Source of the DNA: a virus
DNA: 22,295 bases
Strand: one strand, 5' to 3'
IMG/VR virus record: IMGVR_UViG_3300009151_000440
Location: 1 to 22,295 of that record
Each line of letters starts with the position of its first letter. Positions within the stretch are counted from its first letter, which is position 1. The notes under the pieces were generated by a model. It saw only the letters and a list, made by a program, of their open reading frames with translations. It did no database searches and was not told where the DNA came from. Shown piece by piece: positions 9,081-13,211 of this stretch. Both the position numbers and the translations under genes were made by a program.

Positions 9081-9359
9081 ATGGTTACTTTAGTTATAAC
9101 TGCTTTAGCTACCGCTTTTGTATTAACTGCCATAGAGGAGTTGGTACGAAATTTGGGCAAATTTAGAGGCTTAGTTGCTTTTCTTATAAGCCTTTTAGGA
9201 GCATATTTTACTGGCCCTAATGACTGGGGCATGATCATATTTACGGCTTTTGCCGGAGCATTTGCGGGATTGGCATGTTCTATGTCTATACTTAACCTGA
9301 TAGAGAGCCGTGAACCACGGACTCTACGAGGCATGCCACAGCGCATACCGCCACTGTAA
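9081..9359 (+). CDS. Small three-helix membrane protein (holin candidate)
   Basis: A 92-residue, strongly hydrophobic protein with three likely membrane helices: residues ~2-21 (VTLVITALATAFVLTAI), ~29-45 (RGLVAFLISLLGAYF) and ~49-71 (WGMIIFTAFAGAFAGLA). The tail is basic and proline-rich (ESREPRTLRGMPQRIPPL). Size and topology match class I holins, but many phage membrane proteins look the same, and no endolysin lies beside it, so 'membrane protein' is the safe reading. AAGGA at 9066-9070 supports ATG 9081; an ATG at 9070 reads only seven codons. It is the first gene after the tail module and lies just before the winged-helix replication gene, separated by 18 bases. A long antisense frame over the same bases (9035-9454) looks like a shadow. 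Confidence 0.6.
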   Translation: MVTLVITALATAFVLTAIEELVRNLGKFRGLVAFLISLLGAYFTGPNDWGMIIFTAFAGAFAGLACSMSILNLIESREPRTLRGMPQRIPPL

Positions 9360-9377
9360 GACGTTTTGGAGGGCATT

Positions 9378-10310
9378 TTGATAAGTTCTACCCCTATGAT
9401 GGATACGCGGCTCTCGCTGCGTTCTAGGGGCATTTGGGGCCTATTTATGGCCATGGGTCGAACCCTAACTACATCTGAAATCTACCCCTTAGTTCCTGAG
9501 GGCCGCGACTCTATACGCAAGGCTCTTCGGGAGCTAATTTCTGCTGGATATGTATCTGAGACTAAATTTAGAGGTAAAAATGGCCAGTGGACATACCAAT
9601 TAGATGTTAACCAGGCCTGGATTACCCGGGACGGATTTTCAGGGCCCCTTTTATACGATACCGCTATTAGCTATAGTACTAGTAGCTTAAGTACGTTAAT
9701 AGAACTTACTAACGTAAGTTCTAATAACGTATCGGGCGTGCCGCCCGAGGAAGTAAATACTAAAGAGGAGTATGTTCTAGTGAGTTGGCCAGGTCTTGAT
9801 GATGAAGCGCCAGAACCCAAGGCTAAAAAGAAATGGGTTGAAGACGACGAGGTTGGAGTCGTAGGGAACTTGGATCTTAGGGATAAGAAAGAAGTTCGGA
9901 ACGCAAAATATAAAAAAACTAAGTTTGATGCAGTACCTGCAGGTATGCGTAGGCACGAAAGGCCAGAGGAACTCTGGACTACAGAGGATTTGGTTAGTGA
10001 GTTTTATGAACTTACTCGTGAATCAGCACCAAATGTTCCTAGTCAGGTAAATGGCAAGAACTTAGCGTCTTGGATTAACCGACAAGTTAGTGATGGCGTT
10101 ACTCGTCTAGCTATACTAAAAGCAATTCGCGGATTCTTTAATGACCCGCGTTTGACAAAGGATCCCGGTATAGGCCATCCTTATTGGCGTAGGTTTGTGG
10201 CCTACTATCCAACAGTGCATGGTATTTACTCACGCACAGAAGATATAGAGTACACTGATGACGAGTTTGAAGCCCATAGGGCTAAGATGCTCAAACTATT
10301 GGAGGATTAA
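9378..10310 (+). CDS. Winged-helix DNA-binding protein, replication-initiator-like
   Basis: About 310 residues. The N-terminal ~65 residues form a winged helix: MDTRLSLRSRGIWGLFMAM, a turn, then RDSIRKALRELISAGYVSE (recognition helix) and a KNGQWTYQLDV wing. This is the arrangement of phage replication initiators and DnaD-type proteins, which begin with the same 'LSLrARGl' phrase. A serine/threonine/asparagine-rich linker follows (~residues 90-125), then an acidic/basic stretch and a C-terminal helical domain (ELWTTEDLVSEFYELT, ASWINRQVSDGVTRLAILKAI). I start at TTG 9378 because GGAGGG lies four bases upstream at 9368-9373; an in-frame TTG at 9366 and ATG at 9396 are alternatives. The gene is followed with one-base overlap by a DnaC-type loader, as lambda O is followed by P. 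The DNA encoding the linker is packed with palindromes. Function as origin-binding protein is inferred. Confidence 0.7.
   Translation: MISSTPMMDTRLSLRSRGIWGLFMAMGRTLTTSEIYPLVPEGRDSIRKALRELISAGYVSETKFRGKNGQWTYQLDVNQAWITRDGFSGPLLYDTAISYSTSSLSTLIELTNVSSNNVSGVPPEEVNTKEEYVLVSWPGLDDEAPEPKAKKKWVEDDEVGVVGNLDLRDKKEVRNAKYKKTKFDAVPAGMRRHERPEELWTTEDLVSEFYELTRESAPNVPSQVNGKNLASWINRQVSDGVTRLAILKAIRGFFNDPRLTKDPGIGHPYWRRFVAYYPTVHGIYSRTEDIEYTDDEFEAHRAKMLKLLED
9611..9748. other. Palindrome and heptamer cluster, candidate replication origin
   Basis: Within the initiator-like gene lie, in order: palindrome CCAGGCCTGG (9611-9620), CCCGGG (9625-9630), GGGCCC (9642-9647), a near-palindrome AGCTA/TAGCT around TAGTACTA (9669-9687), a perfect 10-base inverted repeat with a TAAC loop (arms 9700-9709 and 9714-9723) and a 7-base GC-rich hairpin with loop TGC (arms 9732-9738 and 9742-9748). 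The heptamer TAACGTA occurs inverted at 9692-9698 and direct at 9710-9716 and 9725-9731. Several other phage origins, lambda's in gene O being the best known, sit inside the initiator gene in the linker-coding part. The repeats are read directly from sequence; origin function is inference. Chance, or an RNA structure, are the alternatives. Confidence 0.4.
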
Positions 10311-10993
10311 TGTACGAGCTTTCTAGCGTACGTCCGTCTATACGAAGCCAGATAAACCAGTCTAATATTCCAGATAGGTTTATTGGCCTGACTCTTGAGG
10401 ATTTGAAGCCCTACCAAAATGGGGTCATAGATTCTGTACAAAAGTGGGTTGATTTGGTCTTAGATGGTCAAATTATTAAGGTTCGAGGCTCATCTAAGTG
10501 CGGTCTTGGCTTACTTCTAATTGGAATGCCAGGACATGGGAAGACTACTCTTGCTAGTGTAGTACTACAAGAAGTCTTACGTCAGGCGAGACCAGAACTT
10601 TGGGGATCAACCGAGACATTTGCTAAAAAACCAGGACTATTTGTAGATTATCCAAAGTTGTTACGTATACAGCAGCGTGCTTGGAAAGATGACGATGGGC
10701 CAGAAGCCCAACTGATTCAAAGCGTGTACGGTGATGCTAGTGGCGCCGACAACATAAGTTTGTTAGTGCTAGACGACTTAGGCAAGGAACACAAGACTGC
10801 GTCAGGCTGGGCTGAAAATACGTTTGACTCTGTTTTACGGTCTCGACATAACGCAGGTCTTCCGACTATAGTTACATCAAATGTTCCACTTAAGAATTGG
10901 GGAGATGTTTATGGGCAGCCAATGGAAAGTTTTGCTCACGAAGCGTTCTTACCATTTAATATAATTTCACAGGAGGGTGATCGTAGGAAATGA
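10310..10993 (+). CDS. DnaC-like AAA+ ATPase, helicase loader
   Basis: A 227-residue AAA+ protein of the DnaC/IstB type, the right size for a phage or bacterial helicase loader. Seen: an N-terminal segment ending in YQNGVIDSVQKWVDLV; Walker A GMPGHGKTT at residues 72-80; Walker B LLVLDDLG with D155/D156; sensor 1 TIVTSN at residues 186-191; an arginine-rich VLRSRHNAG just before it that probably carries the arginine finger. Between A and B lies FVDYPKLLRIQQRAW, equivalent to the DnaC 'l.r.i...w' region. It overlaps the winged-helix gene by one base (TAATG), with GGAGGA at 10301-10306, and the replicative helicase follows two genes on. It would load that helicase onto single-stranded DNA at the origin. 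The short N-terminal domain presumably binds the helicase. Confidence 0.85.
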   Translation: MYELSSVRPSIRSQINQSNIPDRFIGLTLEDLKPYQNGVIDSVQKWVDLVLDGQIIKVRGSSKCGLGLLLIGMPGHGKTTLASVVLQEVLRQARPELWGSTETFAKKPGLFVDYPKLLRIQQRAWKDDDGPEAQLIQSVYGDASGADNISLLVLDDLGKEHKTASGWAENTFDSVLRSRHNAGLPTIVTSNVPLKNWGDVYGQPMESFAHEAFLPFNIISQEGDRRK

Positions 10994-12953: not shown

Positions 12954-13211
12954 ATGGACTTTGGTCCCAATTTTGAAGGTAAGCAAAAGTGTATGGAAGT
13001 GGAAGATCCAGACATGTTTTTTCCGCACCCATCTGATCGTGCAGGCATAGCTGCAGCAAAAGAAGTTTGCAATAGTTGCGCGTTTATTACAGAATGTTTA
13101 AGCTATGCTGTACGCCATCCAGAACTACAAGGTGTCTGGGGAGGGTTAACGCAGCGTCAAAGGGAAACGCTACGGTCAAAATTAAGGAATAAAGCTAATG
13201 TTACTAACTAA
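12954..13211 (+). CDS. WhiB-family iron-sulfur transcriptional regulator
   Basis: An 85-residue protein with the complete WhiB pattern: four cysteines C13, C39, C42 and C48 (spacing x25, x2, x5) to hold a 4Fe-4S cluster, AKEVCNSC before YAVRHPE, and the GVWGGL turn at residues 60-65 followed by a basic C-terminal helix (TQRQRETLRSKLRNK) that would touch DNA or sigma factor. WhiB proteins occur in actinobacteria and their phages; phage versions (for example WhiB of mycobacteriophage TM4) can interfere with host WhiB regulators. AGGAGG lies at 12943-12948. The last 14 bases overlap the primase gene in another frame. Its place amid replisome genes, in a single transcription unit with them, is unusual. 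Regulation of host or phage genes is inferred. Confidence 0.92.
   Translation: MDFGPNFEGKQKCMEVEDPDMFFPHPSDRAGIAAAKEVCNSCAFITECLSYAVRHPELQGVWGGLTQRQRETLRSKLRNKANVTN

Follow-up and report, generated by a model that had tools for sequence, protein, structure and literature searches.

The question raised by this locus is whether a phage replication-initiator gene carries an origin of replication within its own coding sequence. The window analysed was the whole of IMG/VR virus record IMGVR_UViG_3300009151_000440 (22,295 bases). A sequence-only reading had listed GC palindromes, a near-palindrome, a 10-base inverted repeat with a 4-base loop, a GC hairpin and three TAACGTA heptamers inside such a gene, and had proposed an origin comparable to that in lambda gene O. 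All of the listed repeats were present. Comparison with relatives indicated that, across a large family of uncultured phages from lakes, a long DNA hairpin is kept at this place by paired changes in its two arms.

Genomic setting

The locus comprised the following features.

9366-10310, + strand: replication-initiator gene, 314 aa (PHROG 678 'replication initiation O-like', E 1e-4; PHROG 4707)
9610-9643, + strand: iteron-like stretch, GTTAACCAGGCCTGG / ATTACCCGGGACGGA at 15-nt spacing, starting at 9606, with a TCAGG motif at 9639-9643
9655-9691, + strand: AT-rich spacer with small palindromes (AGCTATAGTACTAGTAGCT), recognized by sequence and raised synonymous conservation
9692-9731, no strand assigned: hairpin 1, arms 9692-9709/9714-9731, 17/18 paired, loop TAAC at 9710-9713
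9732-9748, no strand assigned: hairpin 2, TCGGGCG-TGC-CGCCCGA, 7-bp GC arms 9732-9738/9742-9748, abutting hairpin 1
9764-9770, + strand: Shine-Dalgarno-like AGAGGAG of an internal start, recognized by duplex energy
9780-10310, + strand: in-frame start within the gene, GTG in this phage and mostly ATG in relatives, and the 176-aa C-terminal initiator isoform predicted from it
10310-10993, + strand: DnaC-like helicase loader gene directly 3' of the initiator (PHROG 50, E 1.4e-29)

DnaB-type helicase and primase genes were identified further downstream of the loader. In the AlphaFold2 model of the initiator, aa 18-82 form a winged-helix domain, aa 96-169 a disordered linker (pLDDT < 50), and the C-terminal domain is helical; the hairpin element sits in the linker-coding part of the gene, with dnaC adjoining. 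A Pfam search with the initiator returned no match, no related solved structure was found by sequence, and structure comparison gave weak winged-helix matches, including the DnaD N-terminal domain, none of them at E ≤ 0.001. Matches to the initiator in cultured phages were confined to the winged helix, and a single scan of genome contigs found no host or prophage copies. A WhiB-like transcription factor gene at 12954-13211 suggests that the host of the phage is actinobacterial, and the phages concerned form a large uncultured freshwater (lake) family whose hosts are probably actinobacteria. The two ends of contigs G003, G005, G006 and G008 overlapped exactly, by 94 or 123 bases, which is what circular assembly maps of ~100-kb genomes would give.

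Two abutting hairpins in the linker-coding region

The 10-base inverted repeat (9700-9709/9714-9723) was present but had been understated, as it extends to an 18-bp inverted repeat with one mismatch, TACGTTAATAGAACTTAC-TAAC-GTAAGTTCTAATAACGTA. This inverted repeat exceeds chance: the single-strand DNA fold of the hairpin pair gave z = -8.0, its best repeat score was 14 compared to a mean of 6.1 and a maximum of 12 in 300 protein-keeping codon shuffles, and it was conserved in every relative covering the place. GC palindromes were located at 9614-9619 (AGGCCT), 9625-9630 (CCCGGG) and 9642-9647 (GGGCCC), and TAACGTA heptamers at 9710 and 9725, with an inverted copy at 9692. The heptamer cluster did not hold up as an independent conserved feature or as a set of iterons, for the heptamers form stem and loop in their own clade and are absent as heptamers from most others. 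A terminator was rejected, since no T run follows either hairpin, as was a sigma-70 promoter, for which there was a single weak match, no more than in shuffles.

Conservation and covariation among relatives

Loader and initiator searches gathered ~200 loci, corresponding to 110 distinct gene sequences. Hairpin 1 was found at the same spot in 107 of the 107 distinct genes that cover the place, among initiators diverging to ~40 % identity; relatives with the same protein but lacking conserved repeats, which the sequence-only reading had named as the case against it, did not turn up. Of the three genes without a long hairpin, two came from truncated contigs and one was a distantly related gene of a Rhodococcus phage. 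The loop read TAAC, TAC or, once, TAAA. In L015 (1-649), a relative of the loader at 62 % identity, the upstream sequence contained neither an initiator gene nor the hairpin.

Pairing was counted in a 35-column alignment (A5) instead of the long alignment (A4), in which MAFFT had misplaced the loop gap. Across 27 distinct stems of hairpin 1, 97.2 % of 351 cells were paired, and 12 of 13 pairs showed changes on both sides. Covariation was 0.821 compared to 0.187 in shuffled data (0/500), whilst slid control versions of the stem were 30-38 % paired. On a tree of the protein minus its linker, parsimony counted 65 pair-state changes, with left and right arms of the inner eight pairs changing equally often, and three changes of loop length. 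As the relatives are not independent, more weight goes to the slid control and to the changes counted on the tree than to the shuffle counts. Between clades, the letters of the stem were replaced with pairing retained, and the GC arms of hairpin 2 co-varied as well. On this variable stem the apex was conserved as T-N-C-TA(A)C-G-N-A. That both arms change together while the letters drift points to recognition of shape, and shape, more than sequence, appears to be what is retained in the hairpin. A scan of viral contigs with a 16-base pattern also matched contigs in which no related initiator was found, possibly by chance.

Extent of constraint and upstream repeats

Synonymous codon identity in six clades was 0.83-1.00 inside the hairpins compared to 0.55-0.72 outside, synonymous sites hardly varying here, unlike in the rest of the gene. 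Raised synonymous conservation in these clades extended from ~36 codons upstream to ~30 codons downstream of the hairpins. The hairpins belong to a constrained stretch of ~200 nt inside the initiator gene that is best explained as a cis-acting element.

The iteron-like stretch is the equivalent of CCG-N4-CGG in relatives, and synonymous conservation was raised there too. Self-matching over lags of 3-36 was maximal at lag 15 (0.324 vs ~0.24). The CCG-N4-CGG dyad (core CCGNNNNCGG) was present in 20 of 30 distinct relative segments compared to 2 of 120 control segments, and its exact form was missing from the other 10, the window's own segment included. The 15-nt periodicity and the dyad held for most clades but not all, the iteron-like repeats being faint or missing in some. 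No direct-repeat family with at least three copies was found within 9300-10100. The encoded GxSG motif used TCA for Ser in 88 of 88 cases and GGC or GGG for Gly in 88 of 88. In Microbacterium phages Matzah and Terij, too, the winged helix is followed by the core CCGACGACGG, which suggests that this core is a candidate binding site for this type of winged helix. Upstream of the hairpin in L244/L241 and L016/L159 there were clade-specific 15-nt units, apparently gaining and losing copies, that encode GxS/PGx-type pentapeptides. The AT-rich spacer between the iteron-like stretch and hairpin 1 is a possible unwinding region.

An internal start, and whether the hairpins act as DNA or RNA

Downstream of the hairpins lies a feature absent from the sequence-only account, an in-frame internal start. 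Its codon was ATG in 93 and GTG in 12 of 105 pattern-matched relatives, with no other codon used, and the remaining two encoded Met; where the position encodes Val, the codon was always GTG. The Shine-Dalgarno duplex averaged -10.4 kcal/mol in relatives compared to -3.3 for other in-frame ATG/GTG codons. These signatures predict a second initiator isoform that comprises the C-terminal part alone (160-183 aa across relatives), and they offer a possible second function for the hairpin region.

A reading of the hairpins as an RNA element is accordingly worth weighing, if rather less probable. Folded in the mRNA, they would control or insulate translation from the internal start, or mark a processing site, and so set the ratio of full-length to short protein. 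Hairpin 2 lies a few to ~15 nt upstream of the strong Shine-Dalgarno sequence and start codon in all relatives, and the stretch, which lies inside the initiator frame among successive genes on one strand, should be transcribed. RNA stems normally tolerate G-U pairs, whereas a structure required on both DNA strands tolerates neither G-T nor A-C mismatches. No G-T wobble occurred in the 13 core pairs (0 G-U among 341 standard core pairs), the inner eight pairs contained neither G-T nor A-C, and at the stem base A-C exceeded G-T, the opposite of what RNA tolerance predicts. One-sided changes in the inner eight pairs thus fail on either strand, as would be expected of DNA. A role confined to mRNA is also at odds with the extension of constraint over the iteron-like stretch upstream and with the absence of an Rfam match at the hairpins; the single Rfam match, to a glmS riboswitch at 9795-9907, was sub-threshold (21.4 bits vs a cut-off of 37) and most likely due to chance. 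Taken together, there is a good, but not final, case that the paired structure acts as DNA rather than RNA, weakened by the fact that template-switch correction of palindromes could also give two-sided changes without wobble intermediates.

A candidate replication origin

The ~200-nt element most likely represents a replication origin embedded in its own initiator gene, a reading to which we assign a probability of about 0.55. Supporting context is provided by the neighbouring DnaC loader, DnaB helicase and primase genes. The GC-skew turn that the sequence-only reading had named as a check was found in part: skew turned positive at the hairpin, from values below or close to zero, in six genomes of ~100 kb, but this step did not rank first in all of them. 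Its site is also where the tail and replication modules meet, and other steps were equally strong in some genomes.

More tentatively, the element may be a theta-type origin whose key signal is the form of a pair of neighbouring DNA hairpins, read extruded or single-stranded, and which is coupled within the same ~200 bases to the start of an antagonist isoform. The winged-helix domain would bind the iteron-like dyads, after which the AT-rich region and the two hairpins would open or be extruded from the duplex as folded DNA. Either the initiator or DnaC, its partner, would then recognize the hairpins by shape, through the apex and with stem sequence nearly free, and DnaC would load DnaB helicase there. 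The internal start would yield the C-terminal isoform, presumably capable of contacting the loader or the helicase, though not the origin, and a likely brake or cofactor.

An explanation of lower probability is that hairpin 1 is an operator or origin box, bound as duplex by a dimer of the initiator or another regulator, with arms that track the specificity of the protein. Its perfect two-fold symmetry without wobble would suit such a site, winged-helix proteins often bind dyads as dimers, and the lambda iterons are themselves hyphenated dyads (PMC6022878). The arms did not track the protein, however, in L042 and L247, whose winged helices differ at 1 of 58 aa whilst 3 of 13 stem pairs differ, all compensated. 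Almost free stem sequence, three changes of loop length and the co-varying GC hairpin alongside also argue against a duplex box, and CCG-N4-CGG upstream is the better candidate dyad.

Two further explanations are very improbable. In the first, template switching keeps perfecting a functionless quasi-palindrome within a protein-tolerant linker; this accommodates the two-sided changes without wobble intermediates and the disorder of the linker in the AlphaFold2 model, but not the identical place of the hairpin in all relatives despite large divergence, its conserved apex, or the freezing of non-palindromic neighbours (TCAGG, Shine-Dalgarno, start). The second, a rolling-circle origin with the apex (TACTACG in clades with a 3-nt loop) as the nick site of a Rep endonuclease, draws on the conserved apex above a variable stem and on what we take to be a resemblance to the pMV158-type nick site, but is opposed by an initiator of winged-helix type without a Pfam match, by theta-type genes (DnaC, DnaB, primase) and by the absence of Rep_OBD (PF01719), the one HUH family searched, from all 10 related genomes.

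The usual route to a phage origin is through repeated sequences to which proteins bind. If the element is an origin, as we favour, co-variation would allow origins to be located even when their repeats have diverged too far, and hairpin extrusion in theta-type initiation would become testable by compensatory mutation.

Comparison with known systems

A variable stem is also a property of the DNA hairpins of integron attC sites. These are recognized as folded single-stranded DNA (PMC6393395) and differ from the candidate origin in serving recombination, not replication. The internal start has a counterpart in the replication gene of the Klebsiella plasmid pIGRK (RepR/RepR'), where an in-frame internal start yields an N-terminally truncated isoform that is a negative regulator (PMC6854812). 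Both have an in-frame internal start with a ribosome-binding site, whereas pIGRK is a plasmid and the isoform here is a prediction.

Among cultured actinophages, Microbacterium phages Matzah, Terij and Nicole72 and Rhodococcus phage Whack likewise encode a winged helix and then a linker with pentapeptide repeats, where an inverted repeat of 10-11 bp comes directly behind the winged-helix sequence. Unlike the family described here, they have short repeats only, without the long TA(A)C hairpin, and protein similarity is to the winged helix alone. The genes concerned are Nicole72 gp54 (L112), Matzah gp55 (L287), Terij gp53 (L288) and Whack gp38 (L113), and they offer tractable relatives for work on iteron binding.

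In phage SPP1, oriL lies in gene 38, the loader gp39 and DnaB-type helicase gp40 are phage-encoded, and the origin is described as direct repeats with an AT-rich unwinding region; the available portion of the source mentions no co-varying hairpin pair (PMC6316719). The placement of the candidate origin within the initiator gene and the phage-encoded loader and helicase are shared, and the iteron-like repeats and AT-rich stretch are possible counterparts of the SPP1 direct repeats and unwinding region. Ori lambda, inside gene O, comprises four 18-bp iterons of hyphenated symmetry and a 39-bp AT-rich region (PMC6022878). As in lambda, the gene for a winged-helix initiator contains the cis element, placed between the parts coding for the DNA-binding and C-terminal domains, has dyads and an AT-rich region, and is followed by the helicase-loader gene. 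The lambda-like setting pointed out by the sequence-only reading was recovered, with iteron-like repeats upstream. Four iterons of the lambda type were not encountered in the direct-repeat scan of 9300-10100, and in their place are one long AT-rich hairpin with a nearly free stem, a GC hairpin abutting it and a start codon within the gene. The likeness to lambda is therefore partial, the conserved core being a double hairpin rather than repeated iterons. This shape-conserved DNA hairpin module was unmatched among the known examples considered, and the best reading by analogy is that the candidate origin resembles the lambda O / SPP1 gene 38 kind.
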